Assembly (NCBI GenBank): GCA_019636235.1
Contig: JAHBXW010000008.1
Location: forward strand, 124,001 to 188,000
Direction: 5' to 3'
Length of the DNA stretch: 64,000 bases
Source: Planctomyces sp.
Lineage (GTDB): Bacteria; Planctomycetota; Planctomycetia; Planctomycetales; Planctomycetaceae
Positions 27,394 through 35,337 of this stretch are shown here, in pieces. The position numbers were made by a program, and so were the translations under genes. Below the pieces are notes generated by a model. That model was given only the letters and a program-made list of their open reading frames with translations. It did no database searches and was not told where the DNA came from. Every line of letters starts with the position of its first letter. The stretch's first letter is position 1.

Positions 27394-28950
27394 TTACTCT
27401 GCGAGGATGTGCTCTTCGTACTGCCGGTCGAGTTCCGCGAAGGAAACTCCCGTCAAGGCGTCGAGCGGCGTGACCCGGCTGCGGATCCGCGCATCGGGGC
27501 TGTAAAGCTGGGCGAGGTACGTCATCAGCGCCTCGCGGTGCTCGCCATCGCCGTAGTGCAGAAAGAAATGGGTGACGCCGGCTGCCTGGGCATAGTGCCG
27601 CTGCAGCCGCGCGACGCGGGGCGGCCCGTTCACCATCCCCATGCACTGAAACTCCCGCTGACCAAGCGACGTGAATCGCTCCAGCGGCAGGAAGAACCGC
27701 TGTTCGGGATCCTCCAGGAAGCGCCGCGCCCACAGCAGCCGGATGTGGCTGCGATCGCCGACAGAGGCGCCGTGGGCCGTCGGCCGGAAGGACTCCAGGT
27801 AGCAGGCCAGGCCCTCGACCAGCCAGAAATTCGCGTCCCCGCCGATCTCCGCCGGGCGCTTCAGGCTTTCGCCGAGAATCTGATGGGTCGTCTCGTGGTA
27901 CAGGGTCTCCTCGACCTCTTCCGGCACATCGGGGCGATGGAAGAAATACGCGATGCGGTCGCTGGGCATGTAGATGCCGTTGCTGAACGCGGCCTCGGGC
28001 TGTTTGGGAGTCAGCCGGCGCCGGAACTCGTTCTGATCTCGGTAGTAGTGGACGACATGCCGGGTCCCCGTCCGCGCCGCGCCGGACTGGCTGCCCTCAA
28101 GCAGTTGCTGGAGCTGTGCCGGCGACATGAACACCGTCGCGAATGTGCGCAGAAACCAGGTGTGAAAGCGTTCCAGCGAGACGGTGATTTCGACGCCGCG
28201 TTCGAGGCTGTGGTTCGTGACCACCAGAAAGTGTTCGGACGCCGCCTCCCAGGCGTTCGTGAAATCGGCGCGGACGGCGGCCTCGCGTTCGACGCTCAGC
28301 CAGCGGTCGCGGAACCGACGCTCGCCCGCGTCGTACCGGGGAATGTCCTTCGCTGGCAACCAGCCGAACCGCTCATGCCAGACCTTGCCTTCGCGTTCCA
28401 TCTGCCGACGGAAGGGGGTCGTCCAGCGATCCTGGATTTTGACGTAGCCCAGCAAGGCCCGGGCGCGGGCGTGATCGGAATCGTGATAAGCGGCCTCGCG
28501 AACCAGTCGCCAGGTCAGGCTGTACTGGGCCTTCTGCCGGGACTTCAGCGACAGCTGGAACAGATCGCCGGCGTAGTCGCGGCGGATGGCGCGCAGCCGG
28601 CTGCGGAGTTCCCGTTCGCGCGGCGGATAGGCCTGCGAAATCGCCGGCAAAATCGTATCGGGCAGATCGTCGAACTCGAGCGCGCCTTCATCGGGGCGCG
28701 CCGCCCAGCCCCGCAGGTCGGCGGCGTCCGCGGCCAGCCCCTCCTGATCAAACTCGCTGGCCAGCTTCGTCAGCGCCGCGCCGAACTGCGAATGCCGTCG
28801 CAGGTATTCCGTCCAGAGCGCTTCATAGGCGCGGTCGTCGGCCGCCTGCGGGAACGCGAGGCCCAGGCGCGCTCCGGGTCCCGCAAACGTCGCGGCCGCG
28901 AGCAGGCGCAGAAAACCGCGCCGGGCGGGCGAATTCAGGGGCTCAAGCAT
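27394..28950 (-). CDS. Secreted DUF1570 protein with zinc-peptidase motif
   Basis: The protein has 518 residues. A Tat-like or Sec signal is at the N-terminus (ARRGFLRLLAAATFAGPGA). The middle is helical. The C-terminal DUF1570 region has YHETTHQILGE, an HExxH zinc site at about residue 345, and downstream FWLVEGLACYLE with the likely third ligand Glu, as in gluzincin peptidases. DUF1570 is common in planctomycetes and its substrates are unknown. It converges on nuoA and diverges from the deacetylase gene. Confidence 0.75.
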   Translation of the reverse strand: MLEPLNSPARRGFLRLLAAATFAGPGARLGLAFPQAADDRAYEALWTEYLRRHSQFGAALTKLASEFDQEGLAADAADLRGWAARPDEGALEFDDLPDTILPAISQAYPPRERELRSRLRAIRRDYAGDLFQLSLKSRQKAQYSLTWRLVREAAYHDSDHARARALLGYVKIQDRWTTPFRRQMEREGKVWHERFGWLPAKDIPRYDAGERRFRDRWLSVEREAAVRADFTNAWEAASEHFLVVTNHSLERGVEITVSLERFHTWFLRTFATVFMSPAQLQQLLEGSQSGAARTGTRHVVHYYRDQNEFRRRLTPKQPEAAFSNGIYMPSDRIAYFFHRPDVPEEVEETLYHETTHQILGESLKRPAEIGGDANFWLVEGLACYLESFRPTAHGASVGDRSHIRLLWARRFLEDPEQRFFLPLERFTSLGQREFQCMGMVNGPPRVARLQRHYAQAAGVTHFFLHYGDGEHREALMTYLAQLYSPDARIRSRVTPLDALTGVSFAELDRQYEEHILAE

Positions 28951-29154
28951 GGCGCGGAATCCCGGGGCGTGCCGCGAACAGGCCCATACAACCGTCAGAA
29001 TCGGAGTCTATGCCCGAGGCATGGCGATCCGAAAGCCGGATTCCCGCTCCGCGCCCGCCGCGGTGCAATCTCTGCCGGAGACTGGAAATGGAGAAGTCGC
29101 ATTGTCCGCGACGCTGATTTGATCGCAGCGGACGCAATCGCCCGCGGAGAACTG

Positions 29155-30168
29155 ATGCTGCCCAAGCGCGAAATCCTGGCCCGCGCCCTCGACTGCTCCG
29201 GAGTGGGCCGCGCACTGCGGTCCTGGGGAAGCTGGCGCGGACTGGTCGTGCTGAACTATCACCGGATCGGCGACTGCCGAGCGACGCCGCTCGACCCCGG
29301 CGTGTTCAGCGCCACCGTCGACGAGTTCGACCGGCAGTTGGGCTGGCTGAAGAACCACGCGGACGTGATCTCCCTGGAGGACGTCGACCGGGCGCTCGCC
29401 GAGCCTCAGCGGCGGTCGGTGCTGATCACGTTCGATGACGGCTATCGGGACAATTTTGAGCTGGCGGCGCCATTGCTGGCGTCGCATGGCCTGCGCGCGG
29501 CGTTCTTCATTACGACTGGCTTCCTCGACGAACGGCCGCTGGCGTGGTGGGATGAGATCAGCTGGCTGGTGAAGCACGCGGCCCGTCGTCGGCTGCCGGA
29601 TCGTCCGGACCTGTTCGACCGCTGCGCCCTGGGCTGGCGGCCGGGAGAGGAAACGGACGCCATCCGCAGCGTGCTGGCGGCGTACAAGTCGCTGCCGGCT
29701 CCCGCGGCCGATCGGTTGATCGACGAACTGGCTGCCGCGACGGAGACAGCGCGTCCCTCGCCGGGCCTGATCGACCCCTGGATGACGTGGGACATGGTCC
29801 GCGAACTGGCGGCGGCCGGGCACGCGATCGCGGCGCACACGGTGACGCATCCGCTCCTGGGGCGCTGCGATCTCGATCGGCAGGCGCACGAGATTCGCGG
29901 GTCGAAAGCGCGGCTTGAGGGGCAGCTGGGCAGTCCGGTTCTGGGCTTCAGCTATCCGGTCGGGATTCCGGGAAGTTATTCGGACGATACGGCGAGGCTG
30001 GTTCGCGAGGCCGGGTTCCGATGGGCGTTCAGCTTTCAGGGAGGCTACGCGGACACGCGCCAGCCCGCGCCGCCTGATCGTTACCGACTCCCGCGGATCG
30101 CCATCGAGACGGGGCTTAGCGAGCCGCAGTTCCGTGCGCTGCACACGCTGCCGCAGCTCTTCGCGTAG
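29155..30168 (+). CDS. Polysaccharide deacetylase (NodB-like, CE4 family)
   Basis: The protein has 337 residues. LNYHRIGD at about 34-41 leads to the catalytic ITFDDGYRDN (metal Asp and base Asp) near 98-107, then the metal pair HTVTHPLL near 228-235 and SYPVGIPGSYSDD. It should remove N-acetyl groups from a glycan such as peptidoglycan or an exopolysaccharide. No signal peptide is seen, so it may act in the cytoplasm. The ATG at 29155 has GGAGA upstream; the open frame before it overlaps the divergent DUF1570 gene and is rejected. Confidence 0.85.
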   Translation: MLPKREILARALDCSGVGRALRSWGSWRGLVVLNYHRIGDCRATPLDPGVFSATVDEFDRQLGWLKNHADVISLEDVDRALAEPQRRSVLITFDDGYRDNFELAAPLLASHGLRAAFFITTGFLDERPLAWWDEISWLVKHAARRRLPDRPDLFDRCALGWRPGEETDAIRSVLAAYKSLPAPAADRLIDELAAATETARPSPGLIDPWMTWDMVRELAAAGHAIAAHTVTHPLLGRCDLDRQAHEIRGSKARLEGQLGSPVLGFSYPVGIPGSYSDDTARLVREAGFRWAFSFQGGYADTRQPAPPDRYRLPRIAIETGLSEPQFRALHTLPQLFA

Positions 30169-30186: not shown

Positions 30187-31458
30187 TCAGCGAGCGGAAG
30201 CGACCGCCGGGCGCGCCACGGCGATGGGTTCGGCAGGCACGAAGGCAGGCGCGGCGACCGGTTCAATCAGCCCGCAGCCGCCGGCGACCGGCAGGCGTTC
30301 GATGAGTTCGAACTGCTCCTGATTCGGGTCGGCCAGCCGCTCGGCGTGCCGCCATTTCCGCATCCGGCGAAGCATCTGCATTGGCAGCCGCTTGAAGTCC
30401 GGCCAGATGATGCCCCACTTGAAGAAGAACGCCAGCAGCGGCAGGCAGGCCGTCCGGGGATACGAGGCGATGAAGCACTCGCGGTAACTGGGGCGGAACC
30501 GGCTCTTGAAGTGGTACTGCCGCGGGACGTCGTAGAACCAGGGCAGGCAGTTCCACCAGAAGGACATTCCATTGCGGACGAATCGGCTGTCCGAGGCGGT
30601 TCCGCGATTCACGCGGAGCGCGGGAACCTGGCAGAGCGACAGAAAGGGCGTTCCCTCCGATTGCAACTGTCGGGCGATCTGCAGGATCAGGAAGGCGATG
30701 ACGCCGCGTGTCGCGGTCGGCCGACGGCGATAGGTTTCGACCGCCCACAACTGGCCGTCGCAGGCGGGCGTGGCGACCACGAAGGCCTCGATGCCTGCCG
30801 GCCCCCGCGCGACGAACAGCCGCCGCCGGAGCATATTGTCGAGCTGCAACCGGCTGACGACCAGCGACAGCTCGCGGCCGTACACGGTGTCCGCCAGATG
30901 CTGCCGCGAGACCTCTTCCAGCTGCGGGACGAGTTCCTCGCGATACCAGCGACAGTCGAAATCAGGCTCGACCTCCTCCATCGAAACGCCATTGCGCAGG
31001 CAGAAGTTCTCCTGCCGCCGGACCCACTCAAACTCCCGCCCGCGCCAGGTCGCCGTCCGCAGGTCGACGACCGGCTCCTCGCCGATCTTCGACACCTCGA
31101 ACTGCTGGCTGCGGAACACGGGCAGGTCGGAGGCCAGCAGATTCAGGAAGCTGACGTCCTTGTGGTTGAGTTGCGCGAATTCGAGAAACTCGCGCAGGAG
31201 CTGCGCCTTCTGATGCGGCGCCGTGAGCAGGCCGCCGACGACGTACAGATGGTTCCGCCAGGTGGAAAAACCGACGACGCCCTGGTCATCGCTGCTGAAA
31301 AAGTACTGGCGCCCCGGTTCGAGCAGCAGGTAAGAGTCGTACGACTCGCCATGGAGGAAAGCGAGCTGCTCGGCCAGGGCGTGACGCAGGTGATCCAGCT
31401 CGTCTCGATGGCTGGCGTGCGTGCAGCCAGGCGGGACTTTCCACTGAGTTTGGGGCAT
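30187..31458 (-). CDS. Phosphatidylglycerol lysyltransferase C-terminal-like (DUF2156) protein
   Basis: The protein has 423 residues with the doubled GNAT fold of the LPG synthase C-terminal domain (MprF catalytic half). YFFSSDDQGVVGFSTWRNHL, VVGGLLTAPHQKAQLLREF, EEPVVDLRTATWRGREFEW, and in the second half DGQLWAVETYRRRPTATRGV and TPFLSLCQVPAL follow the family pattern. The MprF membrane flippase half is absent. In MprF this domain moves an amino acid from aminoacyl-tRNA to lipid. It is last in a four-gene co-directional run with GH3, GNAT and DUF58, and converges on the deacetylase. Confidence 0.75.
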   Translation of the reverse strand: MPQTQWKVPPGCTHASHRDELDHLRHALAEQLAFLHGESYDSYLLLEPGRQYFFSSDDQGVVGFSTWRNHLYVVGGLLTAPHQKAQLLREFLEFAQLNHKDVSFLNLLASDLPVFRSQQFEVSKIGEEPVVDLRTATWRGREFEWVRRQENFCLRNGVSMEEVEPDFDCRWYREELVPQLEEVSRQHLADTVYGRELSLVVSRLQLDNMLRRRLFVARGPAGIEAFVVATPACDGQLWAVETYRRRPTATRGVIAFLILQIARQLQSEGTPFLSLCQVPALRVNRGTASDSRFVRNGMSFWWNCLPWFYDVPRQYHFKSRFRPSYRECFIASYPRTACLPLLAFFFKWGIIWPDFKRLPMQMLRRMRKWRHAERLADPNQEQFELIERLPVAGGCGLIEPVAAPAFVPAEPIAVARPAVASAR

Positions 31459-31579
31459 CACGCCGTTACTGCCGGTCCGTGTGGTACATCATCGGGAATT
31501 GTCGTGCCCGGAGGCGCACTCCTGCCCGCCGATTATTCTGGCATCTGGTGTAGTCGGGATTCCCCGGAAGGTCAAACCC

Positions 31580-33301
31580 CTATTCCCCGGAACTCGCCGA
31601 AAGCTCAACGGCGTCGACGATTTCGAACCGGCCCAGCCACGCGGCATCCTGCACCAGTCCGGGGTGTTTGTACTGATAATCCCCGGTCCCCCGGCGGTCG
31701 GTCTCCTCGCGAATGTGGCGGCTCCACGCGCCGCGGGGAAGCAGACGCAGCCGGGCCGGCAGCAGCACATGCTCGCGCCGCCGGGCGTTGTAGAGAAAAT
31801 TGATCCCCTTCAGCCGCGTCTCGAGTTCGGTCAGAAACTGCTCGCCCCGCGTCCGGTCCGGGATGTCCCCCTGTTCCACCAACACCTCGTATCGCGGCCG
31901 ACCCTCGGCGTCCCGCGTTGGGACCGCGGTGATCTCCGTCAGCTGAATGCCGAGTTCCGCGGCCGCCGCGTGTGCGCATTCCAGAAACTGGCGCTCGGTC
32001 AGTTTCTCCCCTTCCAGGTCGCCGCACCGCTCTCCCTTCTGCAGGAACTCGACCAGCGGCGCCTGTCCGACGAATCCCTGGCAGCGGACGACATCTCCGA
32101 TATTGAACCGGTAGAACCCGCCCGACGTCGTCATCAGCAGGTAGTAATCCCGCCCCGGCTCCAGCTCGTGTCCCGCGAGCGCCTGCGGCATCGGCGACTC
32201 GGCGTCCTCGACCGGCAGAAACTCGTAGAAGCCCGCGACGATCGACGGCACGCCTTCCGGCTTGCCGTCCTCGATCGGAATCGTGTGCCGGCCTTCACTG
32301 GAGACGAGGCCCATGTCGCGGAGGCTGCAGTCCCCGAAGTACCGGGGCAGAAACCGCTGTTGAAATCCGGCCGTTCCGCCCAGCCAGCAGCCGATCACCG
32401 GCCGGTCCCAGTAGTCCTTCGGCAGCAGAGTTCCCGTGGCGCGGACGATCTGTTCCAGTTCCCGGGCGCGCCGCGGATCGCGCCGCGAGATCTGTCGGCG
32501 GAGCTGCTCCCGGATCGGTCCGGGCACGTCGAAGTCCGGAGACAGCGAGCCGTCCCGCACGTCACGGATCAGTCGCTCCCGGTGCTCGTTCCCGAGTTCG
32601 GCCATCATGATCAGCGTGCCGGGATTCATCAGGACGATCCAGCCGATCCGCTGCACGATCGACAGCCGCAGCGCCGTGTAATATCGCGCGATCGGGTCGG
32701 GGATGTCGTTGACCGGGCTGGGAATCGCGTAGTACGGGCGGAGCAGAGGATTCTGAATCCGGGCCAGCAATGCGCTGACCATGCTGATCGAGAATCCGCC
32801 CGGCGTCGTGCCCATGTCCCACTTGCCGGCCAGTTGCAGCATCTGATCGCCCAGCCATTTGGGGTGGTCGGCGAACAACTTCAGTCCCCAGATGTCCCAG
32901 CCTCGCCGGTATTCCTTCAACCAGGTGCTCGTCACGGGGTTCAGCTTGGGCACGCCCGAGCTGCCGGTCGTAATCGTGAACCGCAGCAGCTGTTCGGAGT
33001 CCGGAACGAGCGCTGATGTTTCGCCGCCCGCGACGCGATCGATGTAAGGCCCGAAATGGTCGTACTTCGCGATCGGCACGCGCTTGCGGAAGTCGGCGAG
33101 CGACCGGATCTCGGAGAAACCGTGATCCCGTCCGAACGCGGTCTCCTGGCAGACCCGCACCCGGTTCAACAGCCATGTCGTCTGCTGCGCGGCGGCGCGG
33201 TCCAGCAGCCGTCGGAACGGCGGCCAGCGCACGGCCGAGATCGCGCTGATTGCGGAGCGGGCGAAGTACTTCTGCGTTGAGACAATCGGTCGGGGAGGCA
33301 T
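31580..33301 (-). CDS. GH3-family acyl-adenylating (amido synthetase-like) enzyme
   Basis: The protein has 573 residues, close to plant GH3 length. ATP motif 1 is TITTGSSGVPKLNPVTST near 110-127, and motif 3 is GGFYRFNIGDVVRCQGF near 405-421, matching the GH3 pattern YRxxxGD. These enzymes activate a carboxylic acid with ATP and join it to an amino acid. Bacterial members have unknown substrates. It lies 42 bases after the GNAT gene and 121 bases before the DUF2156 gene, so aminoacylation chemistry is inferred for this cluster. Confidence 0.85.
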   Translation of the reverse strand: MPPRPIVSTQKYFARSAISAISAVRWPPFRRLLDRAAAQQTTWLLNRVRVCQETAFGRDHGFSEIRSLADFRKRVPIAKYDHFGPYIDRVAGGETSALVPDSEQLLRFTITTGSSGVPKLNPVTSTWLKEYRRGWDIWGLKLFADHPKWLGDQMLQLAGKWDMGTTPGGFSISMVSALLARIQNPLLRPYYAIPSPVNDIPDPIARYYTALRLSIVQRIGWIVLMNPGTLIMMAELGNEHRERLIRDVRDGSLSPDFDVPGPIREQLRRQISRRDPRRARELEQIVRATGTLLPKDYWDRPVIGCWLGGTAGFQQRFLPRYFGDCSLRDMGLVSSEGRHTIPIEDGKPEGVPSIVAGFYEFLPVEDAESPMPQALAGHELEPGRDYYLLMTTSGGFYRFNIGDVVRCQGFVGQAPLVEFLQKGERCGDLEGEKLTERQFLECAHAAAAELGIQLTEITAVPTRDAEGRPRYEVLVEQGDIPDRTRGEQFLTELETRLKGINFLYNARRREHVLLPARLRLLPRGAWSRHIREETDRRGTGDYQYKHPGLVQDAAWLGRFEIVDAVELSASSGE

Positions 33302-33343
33302 GCACAGGATTCTGTTGCACGCGATTCCAGAGTGAAAGTCTCC

Positions 33344-34405
33344 TCAGCGCCACAGCACCTGCTGCGTTCCGCGCAACAGCCCCGGCGGGGCCGGACCGTC
33401 GAGCCAGCGGACCACCAGGTGGGAATCACGAAACCAGGGGATGAAGCCCGCCGCGACCATCGCAAATGGGTCACAATCGCCGGTGCGGATTTTGAGCGCC
33501 AGCACGGCTCCGGCGCTCCGCATTCGCGCCAGTGCGGAATCGATCAGCGCCCGCCGCGCCGCCGCGGGCAACTGCTGAGTCTCCACGAGGTCGATCACGG
33601 CGACGGTATCCGCCGTGCGGCCGAAGAACGTCAGCTCATGCCACGCGAGCAGACCCTCGACGCGGCCATCGCGGACAGCCGCCACGCAGCGTCCGAATCC
33701 CCGGCAATGCCGATCCAGCGTCTCGGCAGTCCAGCGGATCGCCAGGCTGCGGCTGGCGTCAGCGGCGGCAAGGACCTCGGCGGCGGATGCGGCGTCGCCG
33801 TCGGCGAAGGGCCGCAGTTCATGCGACGGGCAGGTTCGCTCGCGGGGCCGGCTGGTGAAGGGCGCGCCAACCGCCGTCACCGTGCGAGCCAACGGATCAA
33901 GATGCCAGCGCGAGGCCCGCCCCGAATCGAGCACCCTCACCCAGAAGCCCGTCTTGCGGCACGCCCATTCCCCGGACGCCAGCTCCCGCTCCCGGAGCGG
34001 CCGCGACAACGAGCGCCGCGAGCCGACATACCGGTATGCCGTGATCATCCGCCCGCCGGCCGAGCGGATCCGCGCCGCCTGCTCGTCCTTGAGACGTCCC
34101 ACCAGCCCCTGGCCGCGATGCTCCTCGGCGATGCTCAACCAGCTGCTGAGCGCACCCGGAACAAGCCCTTCGGAGGTCTGGAATTCATACGGGCAGGCGA
34201 TGATCACGCCGGCCAGCCGGTCGCCCTCATAGGCGGCGACAACCGCGTCCCTCCGCGCCTCCGGCGCCGACGGCAACTGCCAATCGAAATACTCGGCCGT
34301 CCAGTCGGGCATCGTCATCCGCCCGTGATACGTCTGCTTCCAGACCCCTGTGACGAAGTCCCCCAGATCCTCGGGCGTGCCCGTGAATGGTCGTATTTCC
34401 AGCAT
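33344..34405 (-). CDS. GNAT-fold N-acyltransferase
   Basis: The protein has 353 residues, double the size of a single GNAT. The first half has the acyl-CoA loop pattern SIAEEHRGQGLVGRLKDEQA (RGQGLVG, the A motif) with LEIRPFTGTPEDL at the start. The second half (HELRPFADGDAASAAEVLAA) looks like a second, degenerate GNAT. Acetyl or another acyl group would be moved to an unknown amine. Two starts are possible: ATG 34405 with a G-rich ribosome site, or ATG 34429 that overlaps the DUF58 stop by four bases. Confidence 0.75.
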   Translation of the reverse strand: MLEIRPFTGTPEDLGDFVTGVWKQTYHGRMTMPDWTAEYFDWQLPSAPEARRDAVVAAYEGDRLAGVIIACPYEFQTSEGLVPGALSSWLSIAEEHRGQGLVGRLKDEQAARIRSAGGRMITAYRYVGSRRSLSRPLRERELASGEWACRKTGFWVRVLDSGRASRWHLDPLARTVTAVGAPFTSRPRERTCPSHELRPFADGDAASAAEVLAAADASRSLAIRWTAETLDRHCRGFGRCVAAVRDGRVEGLLAWHELTFFGRTADTVAVIDLVETQQLPAAARRALIDSALARMRSAGAVLALKIRTGDCDPFAMVAAGFIPWFRDSHLVVRWLDGPAPPGLLRGTQQVLWR

Positions 34406-34425
34406 CCGGCCCCCCCGCGATCGGC

Positions 34426-35337
34426 TCATCTGCGGCGCGTCAGGAACGCCGCCAGCGTGAAATCCAGCGGCGCGTCCGTTCGCACCAGCGCGTAATCGCC
34501 CCCAAGATCCCGGCAACCCGTCGACAGCGCCCGCACATGGGCTCCGAACTCCTCGCGATAGGCGTCCGCGAGGGACCGGGCGTCCAACGTCTCCGTCCCC
34601 AATCCCTCCAGACCACGAAACAGCGTCACCCCCTCGAATGGAAATTCCGCCTCAGCCGGATCAATGACCTGCAGCAGGACGACGTCATGCCGGGCGTGCC
34701 GCAGATGCTTGATCGCCGCCAGCCAGTCCTCGGCAGGCGCGAGGGCGTCGCTGAGCAGGATCACCACGGAGCGCGGCGGCAGCCGGTCCGCGAGGGCATG
34801 CAGGCCCCCCAGCGACGGGGCCGCGGCCGCGGTTCCGCCCCCCGCGCGGGGCTCGGCATTCTCCAGACGGTGCAGGATGGCCCCCCACTGACCCCCTTTC
34901 CCAGAGGCCCGCAGCAGCTCCAGCTGGTCGTCGTCGAATGTCGCGCAACCGGCGGCGTCATTCTGCTTGAGGACCAGCGAGGCGAGCGCCGCCGCGGCCG
35001 TCTTCGCGCAGTCCAATTTCGTCCAGGGCGCCGCCGGCGAGCGATAAGTCATCGATTCGCTGACGTCGACCGCCAACGTGCACGCAAGATTCGTTTCGGC
35101 CTCGAACTGCTTGACCTGAAACCGGTCCCGTTTGCCGAAGACCTTCCAGTCAAGGTACCGCAGGTCGTCCCCGGGGGAATACTCGCGATGCTCCGCGAAC
35201 TCGACCGAGAAGCCGCGTCCGGGGCTGCGGTGTCGTCCGGCCAGCCAGCCCTCGACGACCGCCCGGGCTCGCAGTTCCAGCGAGCCGAGCCGCGCCAGCA
35301 GTGCGGGATCGGGCAGCAGACGTGCGGCGGGAGGCAT
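34426..35337 (-). CDS. DUF58 domain protein with VWA-like fold
   Basis: The protein has 303 residues. The DUF58 signature is GRGFSVEFAEHREYSPGDDL then RYLDWKVFGKRDRF, and a MIDAS-like DVSESM with VVILLSDAL makes the VWA-like part. Such proteins usually sit beside MoxR ATPase and membrane VWA genes; none is adjacent here. The ATG at 35337 has GGCGGGAGG before it. Its stop overlaps the alternative start of the GNAT gene, so it may head the DUF58-GNAT-GH3-DUF2156 operon. Confidence 0.85.
   Translation of the reverse strand: MPPAARLLPDPALLARLGSLELRARAVVEGWLAGRHRSPGRGFSVEFAEHREYSPGDDLRYLDWKVFGKRDRFQVKQFEAETNLACTLAVDVSESMTYRSPAAPWTKLDCAKTAAAALASLVLKQNDAAGCATFDDDQLELLRASGKGGQWGAILHRLENAEPRAGGGTAAAAPSLGGLHALADRLPPRSVVILLSDALAPAEDWLAAIKHLRHARHDVVLLQVIDPAEAEFPFEGVTLFRGLEGLGTETLDARSLADAYREEFGAHVRALSTGCRDLGGDYALVRTDAPLDFTLAAFLTRRR

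Follow-up and report, generated by a model that had tools for sequence, protein, structure and literature searches.

A tandem GNAT protein with a predicted N-myristoyltransferase fold, encoded with GH3 and DUF2156 enzymes in a planctomycete gene cassette

We report that a protein of Planctomyces sp. is a bacterial protein with the fold of N-myristoyltransferase (NMT), as judged from profiles and a predicted structure, and that its gene belongs to a conserved cassette that also encodes a GH3-family enzyme and a stand-alone DUF2156 aminoacyltransferase. The initial annotation had called this protein a "double GNAT"; the tandem GNAT architecture was confirmed, but the NMT fold had been missed. 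The NMT-fold enzyme and the cassette are what is new here. The protein families and folds, the conserved gene order, the recurrent association of the genes and the company that they keep in other genomes are established in this work. The cassette lies in a stretch of 64,000 nucleotides, which we refer to as the window.

The four minus-strand open reading frames under study are present as the initial annotation had placed and named them, and Pfam confirmed the family names. A DUF58 (VWA-like) gene (34426-35337; PF01882, 7e-40) lies directly upstream of the cassette, whose genes encode, in order, the NMT-fold tandem-GNAT N-acyltransferase (33344-34405; Acetyltransf_9, 3e-7), the GH3-family acyl acid amido synthetase (31580-33301; GH3, 1e-54, with GH3_M and GH3_C) and the stand-alone LPG_synthase_C/DUF2156 aminoacyltransferase (30187-31461; PF09924, 8e-33). 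The successive gaps are 20 (or -4), 42 and 118 bp. The ambiguity in the first gap concerns the start of the GNAT gene, for which there are two in-frame candidates: the ATG at 34405, which matches the starts of homologues, and one at 34429, which overlaps the stop codon of DUF58. Because homologues begin at the equivalent methionine, the gene probably starts at 34405, 20 bp past DUF58. A scan of the locus for promoters and terminators gave no signal above that of shuffled sequence. Convergent with the DUF2156 gene, and ending 18 bp from it, is a polysaccharide deacetylase gene (27409-30168, plus strand) with its deacetylase domain in the 3' third; a different gene occupies this place in a congener (G001).

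It had been proposed that all four minus-strand genes form one operon. The part of this proposal that stands concerns GNAT, GH3 and DUF2156, which are conserved together in seven genomes. DUF58 adjoins the cassette in none of the related loci that we read, and no DUF58 gene is found there in G001, where the closest counterpart of the window's DUF58 is 42% identical and located elsewhere. Because DUF58 lies beside the cassette in no relative, and because its own genome holds about ten DUF58 genes, we rule it out as a working partner.

The order GNAT-GH3-DUF2156 on one strand was observed, by reading gene neighbourhoods, in seven Planctomycetaceae genomes from four genera (the window's genome, G000, and G001, G028, G347, G542, G618 and G660). 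The initial annotation had pointed to co-occurrence across genomes as a way to examine its idea, and the three genes do occur together in this fixed order. Seven conserved cassettes rule out chance adjacency. The genes flanking the cassette vary between genomes, and the unit is therefore GNAT, GH3 and DUF2156 only. Whole-genome searches of 59 relatives found GH3 in 48, DUF2156 in 13 and the cassette-type GNAT in 7. Incomplete arrangements also exist: GNAT and DUF2156 are neighbours without an adjacent GH3 in G004, G018, G526, G574, G741 and G012 (the last at a contig end), and there is one case, in G012, of a GNAT-GH3 pair without an adjacent DUF2156. It follows that all three genes are not always needed. 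In a sample of 397 genomes of the class, where a stand-alone DUF2156 was counted as belonging to the cassette family at E < 1e-80, the NMT-like GNAT was present in 21 genomes, the stand-alone DUF2156 in 38 and both in 15 (Fisher p 1e-12, not corrected for kinship). DUF2156 is adjoined, directly or across GH3, by 12 of the 23 NMT-like genes in this sample; some NMT-like genes are solitary or have other partners.

The history of this association was investigated using trees. Those cassette GH3s that the tree included group as a single clade (100/100), and the cassette NMT-like GNATs fall within one clade of ten (100/98). In the DUF2156 tree, the copies from the window and G001 group with a G508 gene and with sulfotransferase-linked genes, those of G028, G542, G347 and G660 form a separate group (100/100) that includes the pairs from G018 and G526, and the G004 copy takes a third position. 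These positions suggest that the pairing of GNAT with DUF2156 arose more than once, and they are most simply explained by a swap of DUF2156 at the same position while the association persisted. Such exchange in place would favour a shared task over the mere inheritance of an old neighbourhood.

Several comparisons connect the GNAT with NMT. A profile of eight GNAT homologues, searched against the PDB, matched human NMT2 (4e-9), followed by YpeA (3e-5) and Eis (2e-3). Individually, four of these eight homologues matched the Pfam NMT model (best 7e-4), and one matched NMT_C. When a profile of 14 bacterial members was compared with human NMT1 alone, using an NMT1 sequence that was checked against PDB entries, the probability was 94.9 and the E-value 4e-8. 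The AF2 model of the window protein (pLDDT 89, pTM 0.88) had a best Foldseek match of 3e-19, and the best 50 matches listed were all NMT. VIA-align 2 superposed 323 of its residues on human NMT1 at 2.6 A, with a Z-score of 32.0. Human NMT1 ends in Gln496, whose C-terminal carboxylate serves as the base in catalysis (PMC7048800). Residue 361, with which the model ends, superposes on this NMT1 residue 496, and it likewise coincides with the final residue of the fungal, Leishmania and Plasmodium enzymes. Among 26 bacterial homologues, the C-terminus is LWR or HWR in 22 and has the Arg in 25, the exception being LFT; the Phe-Leu pair of the NMT oxyanion hole is mostly Trp-Leu. To judge from the model, the bacterial GNAT has the fold of an NMT and probably a similar catalytic layout, with its C-terminal residue at the catalytic position, where the carboxylate may perhaps be used as a base.

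Other tested hallmarks of protein N-myristoyltransferases are missing from the same protein. The Gly-recognising pocket of NMT (Tyr192, Asn246 and Thr282) is not retained in the 14 homologues compared: Asn246 is replaced by Ser in all 14, Tyr192 is Trp or Tyr, mostly Trp, and Thr282 is variable in a region of uncertain alignment. Human NMT1 residues 115-152, the first 38 of the catalytic domain, have no counterpart, and the structural alignment begins at 153. When Pfam NMT was used as the search model over 199 Planctomycetota genomes, the cassette GNAT family was not recovered, and the one weak match was a different GNAT adjoining an AMP ligase; the NMT-like family was reached only with a family profile. 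A genome scan with a GNAT sub-alignment yielded four loci, all of them in Planctomycetes. The NMT-like gene of G656 is apparently broken (L143:4754-6056) and lies close to a sulfotransferase fragment.

Several relatives of the NMT-like gene are accompanied by biosynthetic genes. Two Deinococcus plasmids carry the homologue among genes for a thioester reductase, a class III aminotransferase, a radical SAM-type protein, KAS III and ACP, and on one of the two the cluster also encodes an adenylation protein (ligase). With gene names read from sequence, the NMT-like gene comes after KAS III and a radical SAM-type gene in G373, lies within a natural-product-like cluster in G560, and is followed in G728 by two PKS-like proteins, DUF2156 and an ABC transporter. 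In three further genomes (G307, G036 and G732), it adjoins a gene for a fused reductase-like/aminotransferase III protein. Because the Gly pocket is lost and because these clusters are of NRPS/PKS, aminotransferase and ACP types, the GNAT is likelier to be a small-molecule N-acyltransferase than a protein acylase. Other neighbours were observed as well: a FemAB-like gene adjoins the NMT-like gene at one locus (L140), and Sulfotransferase_3 genes adjoin NMT-like or DUF2156 genes at five (L058, L086, L125, L131 and L132).

The DUF2156 protein had been described as the catalytic half of MprF without its flippase, and this description holds: the protein has 424 aa and contains the PF09924 domain only (114 bits; cut-off 27.5). 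Its similarity to the lysyl-phosphatidylglycerol synthase of B. licheniformis (4v36) is at 1.4e-12, with FKSRFRP aligned on FKEKYKP and ETYR at the place of DLMR. On the MprF model NF033480, it scores 85 bits against a cut-off of 600. By analogy, we assume that it would use aminoacyl-tRNA. Family copies often adjoin FemAB-like, sulfotransferase or GFO/IDH genes instead. Stand-alone copies are found next to FemAB-like genes at L060, L116, L120, L122 and L123, and in three genomes (L118, L127 and L133) a copy lies downstream of genes for an AMP-binding ligase, an ACP and a 2-oxoacid-dehydrogenase-type acyltransferase. It is as if one aminoacyl-transfer core had been combined with different finishing enzymes.

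The window GH3 is, by family, a putative ATP-dependent acyl-amino acid ligase. Its three domains exceed their cut-offs (PF03321, 1e-54; PF23571, 2e-20; PF23572, 1e-14), it matches plant GH3 structures at 1e-18, and it has the full set of three nucleotide/ATP motifs (TTGSSGVPK, VSSEGR and GGFYRFNIGD), which were read by eye against those in PMC12493201. That study, published in 2025, describes OlsH of Singulisphaera acidiphila, a GH3 enzyme and lyso-ornithine-lipid synthetase that uses ATP to join free fatty acid to ornithine, its preferred amino acid, giving N-acyl ornithine; deletion of olsH led to loss of the trimethylornithine lipid, and other amino acids are expected for other bacterial GH3s (PMC12493201). 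The window GH3 was ruled out as an OlsH. It scores 77.8 bits on the OlsH model NF052613, whose cut-off is 620 bits and on which verified OlsH relatives reach 706 and 723; the OlsH clade (100/100) is separated from it by a very long branch; and its neighbours are the NMT-like GNAT and DUF2156, with neither OlsI nor OlsG beside it, whereas verified OlsH genes in class-level relatives adjoin OlsG- and OlsI-like genes. No OlsH above the cut-off and no match to OlsB-type Acetyltransf_5 (PF13444) were found in the window's genome, and known ornithine-lipid routes therefore do not make the cassette redundant.

Other GH3 genes have different surroundings. The nearest non-cassette relatives adjoin an LPG_synthase_TM gene or a single-domain GNAT. 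Another GH3 type ends a conserved FAS-II-like cluster in class-level relatives (L044, L046, L047, L049 and L050), after genes for FabG-like, ACP and FabA-like proteins, two ketosynthases and an alpha/beta hydrolase, and apparently represents a different conjugation pathway. The second GH3 gene of the window's genome (L033:4003-6126, contig C35) follows a TIGR04137 'small basic protein' gene, a pair that was found again in about ten relatives. In two relatives (L065:1-7420 and L070:5500-13001), GH3 adjoins genes for a FabG-like protein, a 4'-phosphopantetheinyl transferase and a protein of ~1,350 aa.

We hold with moderate confidence that the three-gene cassette serves to make, in the cytoplasm, a lipid or lipoamide that contains an amino acid; we infer the substrates, the order of steps, the use of tRNA and the final product. 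DUF58 is uninvolved. The NMT-fold GNAT would take an acyl group carried by CoA or ACP and attach it to the amine of an amino acid or of an amino-acid derivative, perhaps with its own C-terminal carboxylate as the base. GH3 would adenylate a carboxylic acid, either a fatty acid or the GNAT's N-acyl amino acid product, and would then form an amide between this acid and an amino acid. DUF2156 would add an aminoacyl group taken from aminoacyl-tRNA. Three modes of activation would thus be used, namely thioester (NMT-fold), ATP (GH3) and tRNA (DUF2156), and the product most likely belongs to a class of N-acylated amino-acid lipids or lipoamides that carry one or more further amino-acid units. The initial annotation had suggested an operon for amino-acid/acyl conjugation. 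The conserved order, the repeated re-association and the related clusters in which ACP, PKS, aminotransferase and ligase genes occur support this idea in kind, with DUF58 left out of it. The cassette reading is also favoured by the NMT fold with its aligned C-terminus, by OlsH as a planctomycete GH3 enzyme proven to make N-acyl ornithine (PMC12493201), and by the lack of OlsB-type and OlsH hits in the window's genome.

Two alternatives retain the idea of an amino-acid lipid. DUF2156 might act first, making an aminoacyl-lipid as MprF does, after which the NMT-fold enzyme would N-acylate the free amine and GH3 would be an accessory that adds a further group. The NMT-DUF2156 neighbours that lack an adjacent GH3 fit this order of events, as does the fact that an alpha-amine is NMT's natural acceptor, but GH3 lies between the two genes in all seven cassettes; we consider this order unlikely. 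Slightly less likely still is an alternative ornithine-lipid pathway, where GH3 would act as OlsH and the NMT-fold enzyme or DUF2156 would replace OlsI or modify the head group. That a planctomycete GH3 enzyme prefers ornithine (PMC12493201), and that the window's genome has no detectable OlsB-type or OlsH genes, speak for such a pathway. The low OlsH-model score and very long branch of the window GH3 speak against it, as do the missing OlsG- and OlsI-like neighbours and the chemistry, in that NMT-fold enzymes acylate amines and OlsI O-acylates.

It is also necessary to consider whether the NMT-fold enzyme might truly N-acylate proteins in bacteria, its neighbours being incidental or suppliers of the acyl group. 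In favour of this explanation, the modelled NMT fold extends over the whole length, with aligned C-termini. Against it are the replacement of Asn246, the loss of Thr282 and the usual change of Tyr192 to Trp, the missing counterpart of residues 115-152, and the location of relatives in small-molecule clusters, so that we regard it as very improbable.

Our preferred reading, in which the cassette builds an N-acylated amino-acid lipid or lipoamide, has a broader form that we put forward only tentatively and consider doubtful. There may be a bacterial family of NMT-fold small-molecule N-acyltransferases, kin of eukaryotic NMT, one of which works in planctomycetes with GH3 and an aminoacyl-tRNA transferase to give acylated amino-acid or dipeptide lipids of a new class, by a single pathway that would draw on activation by thioester, by ATP and by tRNA. 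In eukaryotes, NMT serves as a drug target. A paper of 2021 describes its acylation of N-terminal glycine as restricted to eukaryotes (PMC7943197), so that a bacterial relative of this enzyme comes as a surprise. Found in small-molecule clusters, the family is a candidate origin of NMT chemistry and a testable new kind of N-acyltransferase. A recent review keeps N-acyl amino-acid lipids and tRNA-dependent aminoacyl phospholipids apart (PMC11631085); the cassette would unite these two branches of bacterial lipids. Among open-licence papers, we found none that links NMT with Planctomycetes, and prior notice elsewhere is possible. The initial annotation's remark that no pathway of this make-up had been described agrees with our finding no open-licence paper on the NMT-like/GH3/DUF2156 combination, but it needs qualification in view of the GH3-dependent OlsH/OlsI synthesis of lyso-ornithine lipid (PMC12493201).

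The cassette was compared with several known systems. With eukaryotic N-myristoyltransferase (EC 2.3.1.97), the GNAT shares the full-length tandem GNAT fold, the position of the C-terminal residue and similarity in both halves; it differs in lacking residues 115-152, in its altered Gly pocket and in being set among genes for small-molecule synthesis. Tandem-GNAT fatty acyltransferases of lipidated RiPPs, e.g., NpuN (PMC13060382), likewise have two GNAT domains and fatty-acylate an amine within a biosynthetic cluster. However, NpuN has a peptide substrate, and its nearest structural match is reported to be the tabtoxin resistance protein rather than NMT (PMC13060382).

The OlsH/OlsI/OlsG pathway resembles the cassette in using a planctomycete GH3-fold ligase with the three nucleotide motifs, in its small operon with an acyl-transfer partner, and in an amide that joins an acyl group and an amino acid. 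In contrast, the window GH3 belongs to another clade and has the NMT-fold GNAT and an MprF-type transferase as partners, without the OlsI abhydrolase or the OlsG methyltransferase. Plant GH3 acyl acid amido synthetases (JAR1 and GH3.15) have the same GH3 N, M and C domains and ATP motifs, whereas the window GH3 lies in a bacterial clade. Finally, MprF and the lysyl- and alanyl-phosphatidylglycerol synthases share with the cassette DUF2156 the LPG_synthase_C domain with its FK..F.P motif; unlike MprF, the cassette protein has no flippase and is partnered with acyl-transfer and ligase genes.
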